The notes beneath the pieces were generated by a model. It had not been told where the DNA came from. It was given only the letters and a program-made list of their open reading frames with translations, and ran no database searches. Position numbers and translations under genes: made by a program. Positions 16,662 through 25,209 of a stretch of DNA of 64,000 nucleotides are shown here, in pieces. The number at the start of each line of letters is the position of its first letter. Within the stretch, counting starts at the first letter, position 1. The stretch spans positions 655,568 through 719,567 of the forward strand of contig NZ_KQ948424.1 of the NCBI RefSeq assembly GCF_001514065.1. Direction: 5' to 3'. The DNA is from Streptomyces antibioticus. GTDB lineage: Bacteria; Actinomycetota; Actinomycetes; Streptomycetales; Streptomycetaceae.

Positions 16662-17828
16662 TCACCCCTCCGGCACCGGAATCGGCCGCTTCTCGATCGC
16701 CGCCGCCATCACCTCCGGGAACAGGTCCGGCGTACAGGCGAAGGCCGGTGCGCCCAGCGCGGCGAGCGCGGCCGCGTGCTCCCTGTCGTAGGCCGGCGCT
16801 CCCTCGTCGGACAGCGCGAGCAGCGTCACGAACTGCACGCCCGACGCCTTCATCGCCGCGACCCGCTTGAGCATCTCGTTGCGTATGCCGCCCTCGTACA
16901 GGTCGCTGATCAGCACGACCACCGTGTCCGCGGGCCGGGTGATCTGCGACTGGCAGTACGCGAGCGCCCGGTTGATGTCAGTGCCGCCGCCGAGCTGGGT
17001 GCCGAAGAGGACGTCGACCGGGTCGTCGAGCTGGTCGGTGAGGTCGACGACCGCGGTGTCGAAGACAACGAGGCGGGTGTTGATCGACCGCATGGAGGCG
17101 AGCACCGCCCCGAACACGGACGCGTACACGACCGACGCCGCCATCGACCCCGACTGGTCGATGCAGAGGACGACCTCCTTCTTCACTGACTGCGAGGCCC
17201 GTCCGTAGCCGATGAGCCGCTCGGGCACGATCGTCCGGTACTCCGGCAGATAGTGCTTGAGGTTGGCCGCGATCGTGCGGTTCCAGTCGATGTCGTGGTG
17301 CCGGGGCCGGCTGACGCGGGCGCTGCGGTCGAGGGCGCCGGTGAGGGTGGCCCTGGTCCGGGTGGCGAGCCTCTTCTCGAGGTCCTCGACGACCTTGCGC
17401 ACGACCGCCCGTGCCGTCTCCTTCGTCGTCTCCGGCATCGCCTTGTTCAGCGAGAGCAGCGTGCCGACCAGATGCACGTCGGCCTCCACCGCCTCCAGCA
17501 TCTCCGGCTCCAGCAGCAGCGTGGCGAGGCCGAGCCGGTCGATGGCGTCACGCTGCATCACCTGGACGACCGAGGACGGGAAGTACGTCCGGATGTCGCC
17601 GAGCCAGCGCGCCACGGACGGCGCGGAGGCCCCCAGCCCCGCGGAACGGTCCCGCCCCGACTGTCGGCCCTGCCCGTCCCCCTTCCCGTACAGCGCGGCC
17701 AGCGCCCCGTCCATCGCGGCGTCCCGTCCACCGAGCACACACCCGGTCCCGTCCGCCGCGTCCCCGCCGAGCACCAGCCGCCACCGGCGCAACCGCTCCT
17801 GCGCCGGATCCAGCATGTCGCCGCTCAT
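16662..17828 (-). CDS. VWA domain protein of the MoxR/DUF5682 operon
   Basis: Length 388 aa starting MSGDMLDPAQERLRRWRL. The start overlaps the stop of the small ORF upstream (ATGA, 17825-17828). The C-terminal half is a von Willebrand A domain of the CoxE type with an intact MIDAS motif (VLCIDQSGSMAASV near residue 222, then GGGTDIN and VLISDLYEGG). VWA proteins commonly act as substrate adaptors or co-chaperones for MoxR AAA ATPases, and a MoxR gene heads this operon. The N-terminal helical half has no name I recognise. It is the last gene of the four-gene operon MoxR, DUF5682, small ORF, VWA. Confidence 0.92.
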   Translation of the reverse strand: MSGDMLDPAQERLRRWRLVLGGDAADGTGCVLGGRDAAMDGALAALYGKGDGQGRQSGRDRSAGLGASAPSVARWLGDIRTYFPSSVVQVMQRDAIDRLGLATLLLEPEMLEAVEADVHLVGTLLSLNKAMPETTKETARAVVRKVVEDLEKRLATRTRATLTGALDRSARVSRPRHHDIDWNRTIAANLKHYLPEYRTIVPERLIGYGRASQSVKKEVVLCIDQSGSMAASVVYASVFGAVLASMRSINTRLVVFDTAVVDLTDQLDDPVDVLFGTQLGGGTDINRALAYCQSQITRPADTVVVLISDLYEGGIRNEMLKRVAAMKASGVQFVTLLALSDEGAPAYDREHAAALAALGAPAFACTPDLFPEVMAAAIEKRPIPVPEG

Positions 17829-18169
17829 ACGCCGGCCCCCTCGAGGGACCGGACCGTCGCCGGTCGTCGCGCGGCCAGGGACCACCCCGGCTCTTCGGGC
17901 TCCGCCAACGGCCGCGCCCAGAGCGGCATCACCCGCACGCTCGCCCTCGGCCGCCTCTCTGTCGGAAGCTCCGTCGGGATCTCCGTCGAGAGCTCTGTCG
18001 GGAGCTTCGTCGGGATCTCCGTCGAGGGCTCTGCCGGGAGCTCCGCCTCCTGCCAGTCCGTCACCGCGCCCGCCCCCTCGATCCGCTCCCCCACTCCACT
18101 CATCCGCTCCCCCGCCCCACCGATCCGCTCCCCCGGCCCACTCAGCCCACTCACCCGCTCGGTCGTCAT
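17825..18169 (-). CDS. Small repeat-containing ORF coupled between the DUF5682 and VWA genes
   Basis: Length 114 aa, ATG start. It overlaps the DUF5682 stop and the VWA start by 4 nt each, so it is coupled on both sides, which argues that it is translated. The middle carries a 12-residue tandem repeat (STEIPTKLPTEL / STEIPTELPTE) encoded by a 36-nt DNA repeat. The C-terminus (LWARPLAEPEEPGWSLAARRP) looks folded. No family is recognised. A longer frame reading through into the VWA gene exists but lacks homology in this part. Confidence 0.62.
   Translation of the reverse strand: MTTERVSGLSGPGERIGGAGERMSGVGERIEGAGAVTDWQEAELPAEPSTEIPTKLPTELSTEIPTELPTERRPRASVRVMPLWARPLAEPEEPGWSLAARRPATVRSLEGAGV
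17974..18045. repeat. 36-nt coding tandem repeat, two copies
   Basis: The block tcgggatctccgtcgag recurs at 17974 and 18010, and the 19 bases after it differ at only a few positions. It encodes the Thr/Glu/Pro-rich repeat in the small ORF and is likely length-variable. Confidence 0.75.
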
Positions 18170-20586
18170 CTCGCCACCCCCGCAAGCTCGTTGTCGTCCG
18201 CGTCCCTACGACCAGGTACGCCGTCCAGCCCCACCCCCAGCAGCAGCCGCACCACCGGCAGCACCGCGTCCGCCCGCGCGGCATCGAGGTCGGTCGCGAA
18301 GCCGGGCAGGCCGGCGCCGCTGCCGGCGGGCCCACCGCCGGCCTTCTCGCCCGGTCCCCGCCGGACCAGTTCGCCGAGCGTGCGCCGGACCCCCGCCTCG
18401 TACGCCGAGAACGTCCTGCGCAGCAGCGGCAGCACATCCGTGAAGGCGTCCGCCGGCACCCCGGTCAGCCAGGCGTCGACCAGCCCGAGCAGCCGCTCGT
18501 CGTGCACCAGCAGCATCCCGCCCCCGGCGCCCCCGCCGACGAAGCCCTCGATCCAGGCCGCCGCGTCCGCCGGCGGTGTCCCCGGCGACAGCACGAGCCC
18601 CATGAGCCGCGCGGCCTTCTCCTGCCCCAACTCCCCGTCGTCGAGCAACAACCGCACGGCCCGGCCCCGAATGACACCGGGCACGCTCTCCCGCCCGCAC
18701 AACACCCGCAGCACGGAGTGCCAGCGACCCCTCAGGGGACCCGCGCCTCTCTCCGCCCCGTCCGTTGCGGGACCGGCCGCCGCTCCCGCCGCGGTCGCGT
18801 CCCCCAGCAGCCCCACCGCCCCGTGCACCGCGTCCACATGGCGCCGTATCTCCTCCGCGGCGTCCGCGTCGAGGGCGGCGCAGGCCGGCGGAAGGCCGAC
18901 GAAGATCCGCTCGGCGAGGCCCTCGGCGACCTCCGTGAGGGCGTGGGTGTCGGTGCCGCGGACGTCGCCGTACCGCAGGGAGCGGACCAGTGCGGGCAGG
19001 GCCTGGGCCAGGTGGCCGACGTCCGTGTCCAGGGCCGCGCGGTCGGCGAGGACCTGCATCACCACCGGGAGGGCGTCCGGGAGTTCGGCCAGCAGACAGC
19101 GCTCGGCGAGCGCGGTGACGTCGGCGAGGCTCGGCGCGCCGACGGCGTCCGCCTCAGCCTTGGCCGTCGCGGCCGCGGGCACCGTCGTGCCCCACACGCC
19201 CGCCTCCGCGACCCGCACCGCCAGCTCCGGCTCCCAGCGCAACCGCCACGTCTCCCGGAACGTGCCCGTGCTCCCCCGCGACGCCACCGGCTCGCCCCAC
19301 GCCACGCCCAGCAGCCGCAGCCGGTGCAGCAGTCTGCTGCGGCCGGCGTCGATCTCCTTGCGCAGATCGAGCTCCAACTCCCGCTCCAGCGCCTCCGGTT
19401 TGAGCCGCAGCCTGCGCTGTGCCCGGTCGAGGTCCCGCTGCAACGGCACCGCGGGTGCCCCCTGCGGCACCTCGCCGAGCACGTCCCCGACCACGAGCCG
19501 GTCGCGCACCAGCGACAGCGGTACGTCCGAGCCCTCGCACATCACCGCCCGCACCGCGTCGGTGGTCTCGCCCAGCCCCGCCAGCGGGCGTCCGCGCATC
19601 GCCGCGAGCGTCTCCGCAAGCCGGACCGCCTCGATGACATGCGCCGAGGAGACGAGCCGGTCCTCCTCCCGCAGCAGCCCCGCCACCTTGGTCATCCACC
19701 GCTCGATCGGCCGGTCCGGCGCGGCGAACAGATGTCCGTACCACCCGGGTGAGTCGATCCCCGCCCCGTAGCCGCTGACCCGGGACAGCCTGCGATGCGT
19801 CCACGGCACCCATGTCATGTCCGCCTTGACCTTCGGCAGCCCCTTCAACAGGGCCCGGTCGGCGGCCACGGACGCCTTCCGCCGCAGCGCGGGCACATGC
19901 CACGCCCCGCACACGACGGCCACCCCAGCTCCGAACTCACGCTGCGCCGAACGCATTTGGAGCCGCATGTACGCCTCCCGCACGAGGTCCTTGTCGTGCC
20001 CCCCGTGCCCGTACGTCTCCCGAAGCGCCCCCATCGCCTCCTCCAGCGCGAGGAACGGCCCGAACACGTCCCCGGTGCCGCCGCCCCGATGCTCGACGAC
20101 GTCCTCCCACCAGCGCTCGGGATCGTCGTAGCCGGCCGTCTCGGCGAGCACGGCGAGGGGATCGATCCGGACGTCGACCGGATCGGCGGTTTCAGTCCCG
20201 TCAGTCCCGTCACCCCCCGCATCCCTCCCCCACGCCAGCGAGTGCGTCGCCGGCAAGTCGATGAAGCGGGCCGGGACTTCCCACTCAAGCGCCCAGCGCA
20301 GCGCCACCCACTCCGGGGAGAACTCGGCCAGCGGCCAGAATGCCGACCGGCCGGGCTCGTCCACCGCGTGGGCCAGGAGGGCGACCGGCGGCCGCATGTC
20401 CGCGTCGGCGGCCAGCGGGATCAGGGCGTCGGCCTCGGGCGGACCCTCGATGAGGACGACCCGCGGCCGGGCCGCGTCGAGCGCCGCCCGCACCGCGCGG
20501 GCCGACCCGGGCCCGTGATGCCGTACGCCGAGCAGCAACGGCTCTCCACCGACCGCCCCGCCCTCGCCCCCGTCAATGCCGGTCAC
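18166..20586 (-). CDS. DUF5682 family protein of the MoxR/VWA operon
   Basis: Length 806 aa from GTG 20586, which has a very strong ribosome site (AGGGGAGGGGA). The longer frame upstream is low complexity and rejected. The N-terminus (LLLGVRHHGPGSARAVRAALDAARPRVVLIEGPPEAD) is the hallmark of DUF5682, large proteins found next to MoxR and VWA genes; the HHGPGS and EGP motifs resemble ChaN/TraB-like hydrolase loops, though this is only a resemblance. No membrane segments. It overlaps the next ORF by 4 nt. It probably works with the MoxR ATPase and VWA protein in an uncharacterised remodelling system. Confidence 0.9.
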   Translation of the reverse strand: MTGIDGGEGGAVGGEPLLLGVRHHGPGSARAVRAALDAARPRVVLIEGPPEADALIPLAADADMRPPVALLAHAVDEPGRSAFWPLAEFSPEWVALRWALEWEVPARFIDLPATHSLAWGRDAGGDGTDGTETADPVDVRIDPLAVLAETAGYDDPERWWEDVVEHRGGGTGDVFGPFLALEEAMGALRETYGHGGHDKDLVREAYMRLQMRSAQREFGAGVAVVCGAWHVPALRRKASVAADRALLKGLPKVKADMTWVPWTHRRLSRVSGYGAGIDSPGWYGHLFAAPDRPIERWMTKVAGLLREEDRLVSSAHVIEAVRLAETLAAMRGRPLAGLGETTDAVRAVMCEGSDVPLSLVRDRLVVGDVLGEVPQGAPAVPLQRDLDRAQRRLRLKPEALERELELDLRKEIDAGRSRLLHRLRLLGVAWGEPVASRGSTGTFRETWRLRWEPELAVRVAEAGVWGTTVPAAATAKAEADAVGAPSLADVTALAERCLLAELPDALPVVMQVLADRAALDTDVGHLAQALPALVRSLRYGDVRGTDTHALTEVAEGLAERIFVGLPPACAALDADAAEEIRRHVDAVHGAVGLLGDATAAGAAAGPATDGAERGAGPLRGRWHSVLRVLCGRESVPGVIRGRAVRLLLDDGELGQEKAARLMGLVLSPGTPPADAAAWIEGFVGGGAGGGMLLVHDERLLGLVDAWLTGVPADAFTDVLPLLRRTFSAYEAGVRRTLGELVRRGPGEKAGGGPAGSGAGLPGFATDLDAARADAVLPVVRLLLGVGLDGVPGRRDADDNELAGVAR

Positions 20587-20712
20587 TCCGTCCCCTCCCC
20601 TCGGGAACCGCCGATCCCTGGCCCCCGCCCGAGCCACCCGACCCACCGGAGCCGCCCGACCCACCGCTTCCCTGGCCCCCGCCAGGCTTCCCCCACCCCA
20701 GGTCCTCCCCGC

Positions 20713-21843
20713 TCACGCGCTCACCTCGCGGCACGCGCGGTAGAAGTCCGTCCAGCCGTCGCGCTCGCGCACGACCGCTTCCAGGTACTCCTGCCAGACG
20801 ACGCGGTCGGCCGCCGGATCGCGGACGACGGCGCCGAGGATGCCCGCGGCCACGTCACCGGCGCGCAGCACGCCGTCGCCGAAGTGGGCGGCCAGGGCGA
20901 GGCCGTTGGTGACGACGGAGATGGCCTCCGCCGTCGACAGCGTGCCGCTGGGCGACTTGACCTTCGTACGGCCGTCGGCCGTGACCCCGTCGCGCAGCTC
21001 CCGGAAGACGGTCACCACGCGGCGGATCTCGTCGATGCCCTCCGGTACGGCGGGCAGGTCGAGCGAGCGGCCGATCTGGTCGACGCGCCGCGAGACGATG
21101 TCGACCTCGGCCTCGACGCTCTCCGGCAGCGGCAGCACCACCGTGTTGAAGCGGCGGCGCAGGGCGCTGGAGAGGTCGTTGACCCCACGGTCGCGGTCGT
21201 TGGCCGTGGCGATGAGGTTGAAGCCGCGGACGGCCTGCACCTCCTGCCCCAACTCCGGTATCGGCAGCGTCTTCTCGGACAGGATCGTGATGAGCGTGTC
21301 CTGGACGTCGGCGGGGATACGGGTCAGCTCCTCCACCCGCGCCGTCATCCCCTCCGCCATGGCCCGCATGACGGGGCTGGGCACCAGCGCGTCCCGGCTC
21401 GGGCCGTTCGCCAGCAGCTGCGCGTAGTTCCAGCCGTACCGGATCGCCTCCTCCGGGGTGCCGGCCGTGCCCTGCACGAGGAGGGTCGAGTCGCCGCTGA
21501 CCGCGGCGGCCAGGTGCTCGGAGACCCAGGTCTTCGCGGTGCCGGGCACGCCGAGCAGGAGCAGGGCGCGGTCGGTGGCGAGGGTGGTGACGGCGACCTC
21601 GACGATGCGGCGCGGCCCCACGTACTTCGGGGTGATCACGGTGCCGTCGGGCAGGGTGCCGCCGAGCAGGTACGTCGCCACCGCCCATGGCGACAGCTTC
21701 CAGCGGGCTGGGCGCGGGCGGTCGTCCTGTGCGGCCAGCGCCGCGAGTTCGGCGGCGAAGGCATCCTCGGCGTGCGGTCGCAACGCTTGGGCAGGCGTCG
21801 TCTCCCCTGTTTCCACGGGCATCGGCTCAATGGACACAGACAT
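20713..21843 (-). CDS. MoxR-type AAA+ ATPase
   Basis: Length 376 aa from ATG 21843, preceded by GGAGGGGG; the longer frame to 21909 overlaps the promoter motif. Walker A is GVPGTAKTW near residue 108. Sensor 1 is IATANDRDRGVNDL and an arginine-rich ALRRRF follows, both typical of MoxR-family AAA+ proteins. A 40-residue acidic N-terminal extension precedes the ATPase. It is the first gene of the operon with DUF5682, a small ORF and VWA, and it is divergent from the SWIM gene. Its upstream region has a TTGTCAGTG element like DNA-damage promoters (21901-21921). Confidence 0.94.
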   Translation of the reverse strand: MSVSIEPMPVETGETTPAQALRPHAEDAFAAELAALAAQDDRPRPARWKLSPWAVATYLLGGTLPDGTVITPKYVGPRRIVEVAVTTLATDRALLLLGVPGTAKTWVSEHLAAAVSGDSTLLVQGTAGTPEEAIRYGWNYAQLLANGPSRDALVPSPVMRAMAEGMTARVEELTRIPADVQDTLITILSEKTLPIPELGQEVQAVRGFNLIATANDRDRGVNDLSSALRRRFNTVVLPLPESVEAEVDIVSRRVDQIGRSLDLPAVPEGIDEIRRVVTVFRELRDGVTADGRTKVKSPSGTLSTAEAISVVTNGLALAAHFGDGVLRAGDVAAGILGAVVRDPAADRVVWQEYLEAVVRERDGWTDFYRACREVSA

Positions 21844-21897
21844 GGCGAAGTCCCCCTCCAGGCTCGGCCGGTTGTGCCGTTCTCGGATCTGGCACCC

Positions 21898-21921
21898 ACC
21901 TTGCACCACACCACTGACAAT
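21898..21921 (-). promoter_or_regulatory. PafBC-like (RecA-NDp) DNA-damage promoter of the MoxR operon
   Basis: On the minus strand TTGTCAGTG is followed by 8 nt and CAAGGT. The published PafBC/RecA-NDp consensus is about TTGTCRGTG-N8-TAnnnT; the extended -35 part matches fully, while the -10 deviates in the first base. It is the mirror image of the SWIM-gene site. Confidence 0.6.
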
Positions 21922-21978
21922 CGCTCTGACCTGCGGAAATTCACTCTCAGCAGCGCTCAGCGGACCGATTGTCAGTGG
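21911..21978. repeat. 13-bp perfect inverted repeat in the divergent MoxR/SWIM promoter region
   Basis: CCACTGACAATCG (21911-21923) and CGATTGTCAGTGG (21966-21978), separated by 42 nt. Each arm contains TTGTCAGTG pointing outward toward one operon, so the repeat is two back-to-back promoter elements, not a hairpin. Confidence 0.9.
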
Positions 21979-21991
21979 GGGGATCTACCGT
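21969..21991 (+). promoter_or_regulatory. PafBC-like (RecA-NDp) DNA-damage promoter of the SWIM gene
   Basis: TTGTCAGTG (21969-21977), exactly 8 nt, then TACCGT (21986-21991): a full match to TTGTCRGTG-N8-TAnnnT. A start site about 7 nt past the -10 would fall at or next to the ATG at 21999, so the mRNA is probably leaderless; the GGAG 3 nt before the ATG is too close to be a normal ribosome site. Confidence 0.75.
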
Positions 21992-21998
21992 CGGAGAC

Positions 21999-23348
21999 AT
22001 GACTCAGCAGGGGGTGCGCTGGACTGCGGACCAGGTGCTGGCACTGGCGCCTGACGCCGCGTCACGCAAAGCGGGAAGCAAACTCGGGGCGGCGGGGCCG
22101 TGGTCCGGGACGGGGAGTTCCGACGAGGGGACGGTGTGGGGGCAGTGCAAGGGCAGTGGCAGCAAGCCGTATCAGACGGTCGTGGACATCGCGGACGTGT
22201 CCGGGCCCGCGTACAAGTGCAGTTGTCCGAGCCGGAAGTTCCCGTGCAAGCACGCCCTCGGGCTGCTGCTGCTCTGGGCGGGCGAGGACGGTTCGGTGCC
22301 GTCGGGGCAGGCGCCGGACTGGGCGGAGCAGTGGATAGAGGGGAGAAGACAGCGCGCGCAGGAGAAGAAGGCCGGGGGCGCGTCACCGTCCTGCTCCGGT
22401 GATCCGGAGGCGGCGCGGCGCCGGGCGGAGCGCCGGGCCGAGCGGGTCACCGCGGGGGCGACGGAGCTGGAGCAGCGCCTCGCCGACCTGCTGCGCGGCG
22501 GGCTGGCCGGCGCGGAACAGGCGGGATACGGGCTGTGGGAGGAGACGGCGGCCCGCATGGTCGACGCCCAGGCCTCCGGACTGGCGGCGCGGGTGCGGGA
22601 GTTGGGGGCGATCCCGTCCTCCGGTCCCGGCTGGCCGGTGCGCCTGCTGGAGGAGTGCGCTCTCCTCCACCTCCTGGACCAGGGCTGGCTGCGGCGCGAC
22701 CACCTGCCGAACGGCCTGGCGGCGACGGTCCGTTCCCGCGTCGGCCTGCCCGCCTCCGCGGACGGCCCGCCGGTGCGGGACCAGTGGCTGGTACTGGCCC
22801 AGTACGACACGGCGGACGCCCGCCTGACGACCCGCCGCATCTGGTTGTACGGCACCGGCTCCGGCCGCAGTGCCCTGCTCCTTTCCTACGGCGCCGCGGG
22901 CCGCGCCCCTGAACTCGCCCTCCCGGTGGGCCTGGCTCTGGAGGCGGAGCTCTCCTCGTACCCGGGCACCGGGCAGCTGCGCGCGGCCCTGGGCGAGCAG
23001 TTCGCGCCACCGGCCCCGTCCTCCGTACGTCCGCCGGGGATGACGACGTCCGAGGCCGCCGCCCACTACGGCGAGGCGCTCCGCGACGACCCGTGGCTCG
23101 ACTCGGTCCCGGTGACCCTGGACCAGGTCGTCCCGACCCCGGACGCCGACGGCTGGCAGCTCGCGGACGCCGACGGCGAGGCGGCCCTGCCGCTCACGCC
23201 CACCGCCCGCACCCGCCCCGGCCTGTGGCGGCTGGTCGCGCTGTCCGGCGGCGCCCCGGTCAAGGTATTCGGCGAGTGCGGCCACCGCGGCTTCACACCA
23301 CTGACGGCCTGGCCGGAGGGTGCGGGCGAGCCGGTCCGCCTGTGCTGA
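21999..23348 (+). CDS. SWIM zinc-finger protein
   Basis: Length 449 aa from ATG 21999; the frame upstream overlaps the promoter. The SWIM motif C-x-C-x6-C-x-H is seen at about residues 74-86 (YKCSCPSRKFPCKHALG). It is a zinc-binding fold linked to DNA or protein binding and frequent in recombination-associated proteins. An Arg/Ala-rich helical segment follows and the rest has no named domain. It is divergent from the MoxR operon and shares its regulatory region. The DUF5691 gene lies 214 nt downstream on the same strand, so both are probably part of the same system. Confidence 0.92.
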   Translation: MTQQGVRWTADQVLALAPDAASRKAGSKLGAAGPWSGTGSSDEGTVWGQCKGSGSKPYQTVVDIADVSGPAYKCSCPSRKFPCKHALGLLLLWAGEDGSVPSGQAPDWAEQWIEGRRQRAQEKKAGGASPSCSGDPEAARRRAERRAERVTAGATELEQRLADLLRGGLAGAEQAGYGLWEETAARMVDAQASGLAARVRELGAIPSSGPGWPVRLLEECALLHLLDQGWLRRDHLPNGLAATVRSRVGLPASADGPPVRDQWLVLAQYDTADARLTTRRIWLYGTGSGRSALLLSYGAAGRAPELALPVGLALEAELSSYPGTGQLRAALGEQFAPPAPSSVRPPGMTTSEAAAHYGEALRDDPWLDSVPVTLDQVVPTPDADGWQLADADGEAALPLTPTARTRPGLWRLVALSGGAPVKVFGECGHRGFTPLTAWPEGAGEPVRLC

Positions 23349-23349
23349 C

Positions 23350-23430
23350 CTCTCCGCCGCACCCGACCACCCTGCCCTCTCCGCCGCACCCGACCACCCT
23401 GCCCTCTCCGACGTACTCGACCGACCTGGG
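23350..23430. repeat. 27-nt tandem repeat between the SWIM and DUF5691 genes
   Basis: Two identical copies of a 27-nt unit starting ctctccgccgcacccgacca (23350-23376 and 23377-23403), then a diverged third copy (23404-23430). It starts 2 nt after the SWIM gene stop codon. The units keep an open frame in more than one reading, but no protein is convincing. Confidence 0.88.
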
Positions 23431-23562
23431 AGTGCCTACGTACACCACCGGCCGCGCCGCGTTCACCGTCCGCACCACGCACGACGACGACAACGTCCAC
23501 GCCACGTACGCGCCCAGCGCCGCCCATGCCACCGCACACGCGCGTCGACGAAAGGCACTCGT

Positions 23563-25209
23563 ATGAACAGGACACCCACCCAGGCGACGCCCACATCGGC
23601 GCTGCCCACACCCATGACGTCCCAGCCCACCTGGGAAGACCTCGTCACCACCGCCCTCCTGGGAACCGACCGGCGACCGCCCGCGGCCGGAGCACCCGGC
23701 CGGGCGGCCCCCGTCGCGCTGCTGGACGCGGCCGCCGCGGAGACCGTACGACGGCGGGCCGGGCTGCGCCCCGCGCGGGCGGCGGCGCGCCCCGACCCGG
23801 CGCCCGCGGACCCGCGTCCCGCGCTGCCCGCCGCCGCGGCTCGCAGGTTGGCGATGCTGCTGGCCGACCGCCCCGGCGCGGGTAGCGGCGGCCGCAGGGG
23901 CACGGCACCGGACCTCATGGAACTGCTGCCCCAGTGGCTCGCGGCGGCGAACGCCCGGGGGTTCGCGGCGCCCGCGGAGCTGCTCCCGGCGCTGCTGGAC
24001 GCGGCCCGGGGGCGTACGGATCTGCGGCCGGCGGCGCTGGCGTTCGCCGGCCCGCGCGCGTTGTGGCTGGCCCGGCTCAATCCGGACTGGCGGTTCGCCC
24101 TGCGCGCGGCACCGGGCGGGGACGCGGCGCTGCCACGCCCCGAGGACGGGGAGGGGGTGCGGCGGCTGTGGCAGGAGGGCCTGTTCGCCGAGCGGGTCGC
24201 CCTGCTCGCCGCGATACGGGCCCGCGAGCCCGCCGCCGCGCGGGAGTTGCTGGCGACGACGTGGGCGACGGAGCGGGCCGAGGACCGGCTGATGTTCCTG
24301 GACTCGCTGCGGACGGGGCTGGGCGCGGCCGACGAGCCGTTCCTGGAGCAGGCGCTGTCGGATCGCAGCCGCAATGTCCGGGCGACGGCGGCCGAGTTGC
24401 TCTCGGCGCTGCCGGGCTCGGCGCTCGCCGCGCGGATGGCGGTCAGGGCGGCGGCGTGTGTGGCGGTGGACCGTACGCGCGAGGTCCCGTCGATCGTGGT
24501 CGAAGCGCCGCACGAGTGCGATTCGAGCATGGAGCGGGACGGTGTCGTACCCAAGGCTCCGGCGGGACGGGGTGAACGGTCATGGTGGTTCGGCCAGTTG
24601 ATGGAGGCCGCCCCGCTGGGCACGTGGTCGGCGCGGCTCGGTGGGCGGACTCCCGAGGAGATCGTGGCGCTGCCGGTGATGGACGACTGGCGGTCCGAGC
24701 TGCACGCGGCGTGGTGCCGGGCGGCGGTGCGGCAGCGGGACGCCGGCTGGGCGCGGGCGCTGCTCGGGGCGCCCGCGGCGCCGGAGGCCGGTGGCCCGGG
24801 CGCGGTGTCGCTGGCCGAGCGGGCCAAGCTGCTGGGGACGCTGCCGCCGGGCGAACGGGCCGACTGGGTGGCCGGGTTCATCGCGGCGCACGGCCTGTCG
24901 GAGGCGTTTCAGCTGCTCGGCGGCTGCGCGGTGCCGTGGTCGGGGCCGCTCGGGCGGGCCGTGGTGGACGCACTCAACATCGCGCGGGACGCGGGGAGTT
25001 ATCCATGGAGTTTCAGTGGCGTGATGGGGCTGGCCGAGCGGTGCCTCGACCCGGCGGAGGCGAGCCGGCTGGACGGCCTGCTGGCGGTGCCGGACGAGAC
25101 CGAGGATGCCTCGCCGGGTGCCGGCGGGTACTGGGCGGAGGCCTTCCAGCGACTGGGCACGACGCTGCGGCTGCGGGCGGCGATGCTCGACGAGCTGGGG
25201 ACGGCGTAG
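23563..25209 (+). CDS. DUF5691 family protein
   Basis: Length 548 aa from ATG 23563, with AAAGG 8 nt upstream. The N-terminus TWEDLVTTALLGTDRRP is typical of DUF5691. The protein is rich in Ala/Leu/Arg helices, with a HEAT-like stretch at about 230-300 (DRLMFLDSLRTGL..DRSRNVRATAAELLSALPGS). No catalytic motif. DUF5691 genes travel with MoxR, SWIM, DUF5682 and VWA genes, as here, so it is probably a scaffold or substrate-recognition part of that system. Confidence 0.9.
   Translation: MNRTPTQATPTSALPTPMTSQPTWEDLVTTALLGTDRRPPAAGAPGRAAPVALLDAAAAETVRRRAGLRPARAAARPDPAPADPRPALPAAAARRLAMLLADRPGAGSGGRRGTAPDLMELLPQWLAAANARGFAAPAELLPALLDAARGRTDLRPAALAFAGPRALWLARLNPDWRFALRAAPGGDAALPRPEDGEGVRRLWQEGLFAERVALLAAIRAREPAAARELLATTWATERAEDRLMFLDSLRTGLGAADEPFLEQALSDRSRNVRATAAELLSALPGSALAARMAVRAAACVAVDRTREVPSIVVEAPHECDSSMERDGVVPKAPAGRGERSWWFGQLMEAAPLGTWSARLGGRTPEEIVALPVMDDWRSELHAAWCRAAVRQRDAGWARALLGAPAAPEAGGPGAVSLAERAKLLGTLPPGERADWVAGFIAAHGLSEAFQLLGGCAVPWSGPLGRAVVDALNIARDAGSYPWSFSGVMGLAERCLDPAEASRLDGLLAVPDETEDASPGAGGYWAEAFQRLGTTLRLRAAMLDELGTA

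Follow-up and report, generated by a model that had tools for sequence, protein, structure and literature searches.

The DNA between a MoxR-type ATPase gene and a SWIM zinc-finger gene in the window (the whole 64-kb stretch of Streptomyces DNA that was analysed) appears to hold a pair of distinct promoters, pointing away from each other, that belong to the RecA-NDp (PafBC-dependent) class. Assignment of both sites to the RecA-NDp class is almost certain, and we consider it likely that two PafBC-class promoters would fire both operons upon DNA damage. The MoxR/DUF5682/VWA-SWIM/DUF5691 machine encoded by these operons probably belongs to the damaged-DNA response.

The region is marked by a 13-bp inverted repeat. 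A sequence check showed that its left arm (CCACTGACAATCG, positions 21911-21923) and its right arm (CGATTGTCAGTGG, positions 21966-21978) are perfect reverse complements, which bears out the claim of a perfect repeat with outward arms made in an earlier, sequence-only reading of this DNA. Each arm carries the −26 element TTGTCAGTG, at 21969-21977 on the plus strand towards SWIM and at 21912-21920 on the minus strand towards MoxR. The RecA-NDp consensus quoted in PMC5656591, tTGTCRgtg followed by 8 nt and TannnT, comes from M. tuberculosis, and it is this mycobacterial consensus that we applied to a Streptomyces host. The SWIM side, which reads TTGTCAGTG-N8-TACCGT-N7-ATG with the −10 element at 21986-21991 (plus strand) and the ATG at 21999, satisfies TTGTCRGTG-N8-TAnnnT. 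Because only 7 nt separate TACCGT from the ATG at 21999, the SWIM start is predicted to be leaderless; this placement agrees with that of other sites of the class in the genome, and the earlier description of this side as a full consensus with a leaderless start was correct. On the minus strand, the MoxR side consists of TTGTCAGTG at 21920-21912, N8, CAAGGT at 21903-21898, N54 and the ATG at 21843, and the 54-nt leader includes a ribosome-binding-site-like stretch, GGAGGGGG, ahead of that ATG. The TTGTCRGTG core and the 8 nt to the −10 are present here too, but CAAGGT departs by one base from the published TAnnnT, and we class the MoxR-side site only as a variant that looks as if it worked like RecA-NDp/PafBC promoters. 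The earlier description of the MoxR side as an identical core plus CAAGGT stood, but not its '-35' label, since the position is that of the −26 motif of the PafBC literature (PMC11804915). LexA boxes of the forms GAAC-N4-GTTC or CGAAC-N4..6-GTTCG were absent from positions 21701-22100 in a search for these exact patterns, which a degenerate box would escape.

The MoxR-side genes lie on the minus strand and encode a MoxR-type AAA+ ATPase of the AAA_5 type (376 aa, starting with ATG; 20713-21843; Pfam PF07728, E 3.8e-37), a DUF5682 protein (832-aa ORF; 18166-20664; PF18934, E 1.5e-299) and a CoxE-like VWA protein (16662-17828; PF05762, E 2.6e-62 on the longer ORF, which is open to 18437, the start at 17828 being our choice). 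On the plus strand follow the leaderless SWIM zinc-finger gene (449 aa; 21999-23348; PF04434, E 4e-6), whose product shares 98% identity with its counterpart in Streptomyces sp. GKU 895, and a DUF5691 gene (23320-25209; PF18944, E 3.7e-177) whose ORF overlaps the SWIM stop. The MoxR AAA+ and VWA genes run in series on one strand, as in a MoxR/VWA pair. RavA-ViaA and NorQ-NorD are pairs of this kind, and the locus shares with them the AAA_5-type MoxR ATPase and the CoxE-like VWA protein but adds DUF5682, SWIM and DUF5691; none of the partner genes of RavA-ViaA or NorQ-NorD was recognised at the locus. The VWA protein matched ViaA weakly (20.9 bits against a cut-off of 500), and bpMoxR (PF20030), the family of MoxR-vWA-beta-propeller ternary conflict systems, reached 23.1 bits, below its cut-off of 27. 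An anti-phage defence system was considered and rejected, as PADLOC gave 0 families at E 0.001 for all seven proteins submitted.

Structure prediction pointed to helical architectures. The AlphaFold2 model of the DUF5682 protein (mean pLDDT 81.2) has a long helical C-terminal part, and the protein contains two conserved stretches, EGPPE and GAWHVPAL, which we take to resemble a TIKI/TraB-like hydrolase. Foldseek returned no match to the DUF5682 fold below E 0.001, the best ones being helical-repeat proteins, and the sequence profile gave two weak matches, both to designed repeat proteins; because neither search lent it support, a TIKI/TraB-like fold stays unproven. The DUF5691 model, of moderate confidence (pLDDT 71.4), is mostly helical and had no structural match below E 0.001, its best matches being Integrator and importin-type repeat proteins.

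Within the window TTGTCRGTG occurred twice, against a shuffle mean of 0.55, and 8 of 100 shuffles held two or more matches; the window by itself is weak evidence against chance. Across the 10.1-Mb genome, TTGTCRGTG-N8-TAnnnT matched 45 times and its reversed control never. Freeing the spacer to 4-13 nt raised the count to 50 (control, 1), with a spacer of exactly 8 nt in 45 of the 50. Two divergent elements separated by 30-60 nt were found a single time in the genome (control, 0).

Left unconstrained, the first base of the −10 gave 93 matches (control, 1), made up of 45 with T, 31 with C, 14 with G and 3 with A; the CAnnnT form thus accounted for 31 genome matches, against one in its reversed control. 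An ATG or GTG lay 6-7 nt past the −10 at 23 of 45 TAnnnT sites and 17 of 31 CAnnnT sites (at exactly 7 nt for 17 of the 45 consensus sites), while every other offset up to 60 nt was represented by at most four sites of either −10 class. Since CAnnnT sites are leaderless about as often as TAnnnT sites, CAnnnT looks like a variant −10; leaderless initiation would be common at both forms, and CAAGGT on the MoxR side is in keeping with a genuine CAnnnT variant.

The sequence-only reading had proposed a search of orthologous loci, where absence of the paired motif would speak against it. We examined 80 named Streptomyces loci picked through the SWIM protein, without use of the motif, as the best 80 out of at least 543, and both elements were found in 79 of them: the left one was exact in all 80 and the right one in 79, the sole exception, L125, having lost one base of the right element. 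The right −10 conformed to TAnnnT in all 79 loci having the right element and the left −10 to CAnnGT in 80 of 80. Agreement with the commonest base was 49% at 7-25 nt upstream of the right element and 88% in the 8-nt spacer, and the sequence beyond the left −10 was in large part conserved in the 80 loci. These data bear on the possibility that the SWIM-side promoter alone is damage-controlled, with CAAGGT as a vestige or a weak start site and MoxR under some other control. Such an arrangement would account for the off-consensus first base of the MoxR-side −10 and for the 54-nt MoxR leader with its ribosome-binding-site-like stretch, unlike the leaderless pattern. It is, however, quite unlikely in view of the invariant CAnnGT and the largely conserved DNA behind it in the 80 loci, the 31 CAnnnT matches against one in the control, the start codon 6-7 nt further on at 17 of these 31 sites, and the excess of C over G at the first −10 base (31 versus 14). 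We therefore retain two promoters.

Because the 80 named loci are the closest relatives, 150 genomes drawn evenly across the genus were also searched. A close pair (gap 34-64 nt) was present in 93 of them, and the reversed control in one. Among the 57 genomes that had no close pair, 48 contained a SWIM match, and in all 30 of those 48 loci that were read both elements were present with at most one mismatch. The left element was exact in 28 (26 from reading upstream of MoxR, plus L258 and L276 from reading on the SWIM side) and had one mismatch in 2; the right element was exact in 26 and had one mismatch in 4. In 17 of the 30 loci the two elements are no longer close, the left arm lying outside the 130 nt searched yet present upstream of MoxR, and in the eight such parted loci that were measured the MoxR-SWIM gap was 576-845 bp, with each element staying beside its own gene. 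The same eight loci (L268, L275, L266, L269, L287, L272, L278 and L286) have a small frame of about 137-183 aa between MoxR and SWIM, with a lipoprotein-like start as judged by eye, and both promoter elements intact. The wider search thus upheld the earlier expectation for the orthologous loci read.

The parted loci also decide how the inverted repeat is to be read. It could be a palindrome that serves one dimeric regulator as its operator, with the RecA-NDp likeness secondary, and the perfect 13-bp arms, the symmetric layout and the discrete arm spacings described below would suit such an operator. But each arm has retained a −10 of its own, 8 nt away, and the 44 other consensus sites of the genome stand singly. 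Above all, since the parted loci keep each element with its own gene, the elements belong to two genes and not to one operator; a single palindromic operator is very improbable and we reject it on these loci. Two separate outward promoters remain the preferred reading.

Genes behind the motif were called with a crude GC-frame script for 42 of the 45 TAnnnT sites and 27 of the 31 CAnnnT sites. Protein families were scanned for 40 of the 42 (L164 and L166 left out) and 21 of the 27 (L190, L191, L192, L197, L200 and L201 left out), the first 20 TAnnnT genes against NCBIfam and the remainder against Pfam, some against both. By our own tally, made without comparison to the genome background, DNA repair or replication families accounted for 14 of the 40 TAnnnT-type and 6 of the 21 CAnnnT-type genes. 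The former comprised RecA, UvrA, UvrB, RuvC, RadA, Nth, MgsA/RarA, DnaX, a RecD2-like protein, a Helicase_C_2 helicase, a methylguanine methyltransferase (MGMT), a uracil glycosylase (UDG), an AlkZ-like protein and ThyX; the latter comprised LigA, an AlkZ-like protein, the delta and delta' subunits of DNA polymerase III, DinB and GyrA/ParC. The sites of recA and uvrB are among those placed as leaderless promoters. Non-repair genes made up the other 26 of 40 and 15 of 21 and included an ABC transporter, a sigma factor, SUKH proteins, a CoA transferase and proteins without a match, a majority that is as expected for a broad regulon plus some chance matches. The SUKH-family genes (SMI1_KNR4 and SUKH-4) stand behind RecA-NDp-class sites at L139 and L004. 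Elsewhere in the genome, a PafC-like protein (HTH_PafC, WYL, WCX) adjoins a WYL/WCX protein on the stretch that also encodes the Pup ligase PafA, and this neighbour is taken as PafB by its place and domains. Repair genes such as recA, uvrA, uvrB, ruvC, radA and nth behind the motif, together with PafB- and PafC-like genes near PafA, support the earlier view of the motif as a damage-type one.

In mycobacteria, PafBC is described as being activated by binding ssDNA in its WYL domains and as inserting between domain 4 of sigma-A and the promoter, with PafB reading the −26 motif (PMC11804915). The sites studied here share with such promoters the core, the 8-nt spacing, the −10 (on the SWIM side), the repair genes behind the motif and the PafB- and PafC-like genes; they differ in the back-to-back pair with discrete spacing, CAnnnT on the MoxR side, the element GCAGGTCRGA and the uncharacterised targets. 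Promoters of the RecA-NDp class might alternatively be driven by another regulator, for example ClgR, which has been put forward for the motif in mycobacteria, or be mostly constitutive. ClgR recognises the P1 promoter region according to a study cited in PMC5656591, and the discussion of PMC9380542 (2022) states that a PafBC-type response in Streptomyces remains to be shown. Against this, PMC11804915 and PMC8223512 describe PafBC as the mycobacterial activator at the motif, and here PafB- and PafC-like genes are present and many repair genes lie behind the motif. We regard another regulator or constitutive expression as unlikely, PafBC as the likely activator at both putative promoters, and induction of both operons by DNA damage as equally likely.

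For Streptomyces itself, published indications point in two directions. Under the heading 'SCO6735 Is UV-inducible', PMC5087735 reports RecA-NDp promoters for SCO6735 and for orthologues in several Streptomyces. This macrodomain gene of S. coelicolor offers a UV-inducible precedent within the genus and the motif class, although it has a single promoter and encodes another protein. According to PMC9380542, a first search pointed to a lack of conservation of the PafBC motif of M. smegmatis in S. venezuelae. We counted 40 consensus sites in another Streptomyces genome, against 45 in the genome of the window; these counts, made in genomes other than that of S. venezuelae, agree with PMC5087735.

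A further conserved element, TTCCGCAGGTCAGA, lies just behind the MoxR-side −26 element (21925-21938, minus strand). Its general form GCAGGTCRGA was found in 30 of 61 Streptomyces genomes and its reversed control in none, mostly 4-5 nt behind the −26 element, and it points towards MoxR in some species and towards SWIM in others. The form TTNCGCAGGTCRGA directly precedes some RecA-NDp −26 elements, at 21925-21938 (minus strand) of the window and at L180, L204 and L252. Within the genome of the window GCAGGTCRGA also accompanies a HEPN_SAV_6107 gene and a SWIM-like/DUF7824 pair; the HEPN_SAV_6107 site (L204, C11:419493) combines a CAnnnT-type site, the element GCAGGTCAGA and a MoxR-like leader of 48 nt.

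Related systems in the genus carry the same promoter class. A second DUF5682 locus in the genome of the window (L051 2092-14492, contig C1) encodes DUF4132, a very large frame, MoxR, a DUF5682-VWA fusion and a 621-aa protein that had no Pfam match and in which a SWIM-like CxC...CxH stretch is visible by eye; a TTGTCAGTG-N8-TAACGT site lies 85 nt ahead of the DUF4132 start. In a set of nine paralogous DUF5682 loci (this one and eight from eight other Streptomyces genomes) the motif was exact in seven and had one mismatch in two, with TAnnnT in all nine; two of the nine, L217 and L218, represent a third type that encodes a large DUF4132 protein, in one case with WGR. Because the paralogous loci carry the motif too, independent copies of the machine within one genus share a promoter class. 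Elsewhere in the genome of the window, a DUF4132-DUF7737 gene has a CAnnnT-form site, and a 477-aa protein adjoining a DUF7824/7825 gene has a TAnnnT-form site and matches SWIM at 17.7 bits against the Pfam cut-off of 19.6. Weaker third DUF5682 matches were seen in genomes G023 and G153. At L218 6888-6947 (genome G123) DUF4132-DUF7737 and WGR-DUF4132 genes are separated by divergent motifs at a gap of 42, one arm being mismatched, and a second motif pair with a gap of 42 occurs in G413.

Outside Streptomyces the promoter was absent from all 12 DUF5682 loci read (L039-L050), and for this reason the link between promoter and system is drawn for Streptomyces only. Core 9-mers at L040 (1555 and 11821) and L050 (8639) were rejected as promoters, as they lie inside predicted coding frames and have no TAnnnT. 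Among 13 non-Streptomyces genomes searched, all had a PafC-type HTH match (weak in G224), 11 had no consensus site, and G214 and G049 had 12 and 5, none of them at the DUF5682 operon. A control search also found a DUF5682 protein in E. coli, in the locus that we take to be yehL-M-P-Q.

The distance between the arms falls into discrete classes. In the 79 named loci plus the window the gaps were 36-38 (33 loci), 48-49 (22) and 60-61 nt (25), and none lay between. In the genus draw, a partly overlapping set with 75 pairs listed of 93 genomes, 71 of 72 gaps belonged to these classes and the other was 50, three second pairs of a genome (42, 48 and 62) being left out; uniformly distributed gaps would place 23% in the classes. 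Gaps of 26-27 occurred in other lineages and gaps of 71, 84, 92 and 107 at single loci. On a SWIM tree of 96 rows (a quick tree with many weak forks, on which the 26-27 class was lumped with 36-38) at least 21 class changes were counted and no intermediate length was seen among 95 gaps. The best-fitting period was 11.4-12.05 bp.

Two accounts of this spacing compete. One is that two PafBC-polymerase complexes have to stand in helical phase with each other. The repeated class changes without intermediate lengths favour it, as do the 71 of 72 gaps within the classes (among the pairs listed), a period near the helical repeats of 11.60 and 11.08 bp fitted to lac loops in vivo (PMC1762422), and the swapping of the upstream element from side to side with unchanged spacing. 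However, the classes were set after the data had been seen, gaps of 71, 84, 92, 107 and more than 500 bp exist as well, and the divergent pair of G123, with its mismatched arm, has a gap of 42. The other account, in which a 12-bp repeat is gained and lost and has no functional role, draws on the self-similarity of the spacers at lag 12 (z of 7.8 each for the 48-49 and 60-61 classes and of 2.1 for 36-38). Because the longer spacers are self-similar at this lag, gain and loss of 12-bp units would explain the steps at least partly. Pure helical phasing is thereby weakened as a full explanation, and we keep a phase requirement as a possibility somewhat short of an even chance.

In Deinococcus radiodurans, DRA0166 (DUF4132) and DR2173 (WGR) were up after mitomycin C in the wild type and not in an irrE mutant, and are damage-induced in a DdrO/IrrE-dependent manner; MolR is described there as a member of the LexA regulon (PMC8533742). 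The E. coli and Deinococcus systems differ from the present one in being under other regulators, and we read the Deinococcus data as support by analogy that concerns related proteins and does not extend to the machine as a whole. Levels of MoxR1 and MoxR2 (MSMEG_3147 and MSMEG_3148) were lowered in a pafBC deletion of M. smegmatis (PMC5656591). We know of no link between these two proteins and DUF5682. A word search of a literature collection found DUF4132 or DUF7737 in three papers and DUF5682 or DUF5691 in none, and searches on yeh/DUF4132, MoxR, WGR and SWIM had no study of the system among the papers listed.

Taken together, we propose that ssDNA accumulating after damage would lead the MoxR-DUF5682-VWA and SWIM-DUF5691 operons to fire together, with Streptomyces PafBC acting at both sites. 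The presence of a VWA partner for MoxR suggests an AAA+ remodeller, and the product may consist of this MoxR/VWA remodeller, a SWIM zinc-finger partner and helical scaffolds, in which the SWIM finger and the helical-repeat proteins would supply targeting. The remodeller might work on protein or nucleoprotein targets in repair. Remodelling of targets during repair is a tentative assignment that we hold to be a little less than evenly probable, and a chaperone role on damaged nucleoprotein complexes is no more than consistent with the observations. More doubtful still is a general and hitherto unnoticed effector arm in bacterial responses to DNA damage, in which MoxR/VWA/DUF5682 would be combined with SWIM, helical-repeat and DUF4132/WGR proteins, under PafBC in Streptomyces and, for DUF4132/WGR, under DdrO in Deinococcus, with helical-phase coupling of two PafBC-polymerase complexes at the present locus, by which the two halves of the machine would be produced jointly.

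New here are the discrete arm spacings, the GCAGGTCRGA upstream element and the placing of an uncharacterised system in the damage regulon. CAnnnT sites are invisible to the published consensus and, if real, would add 31 sites to the 45 of this genome. The consensus sites bear on the question, left open in the discussion of PMC9380542, of a PafBC-type response in Streptomyces. An uncharacterised five-gene system would gain a physiological address, the LexA-independent DNA-damage regulon.
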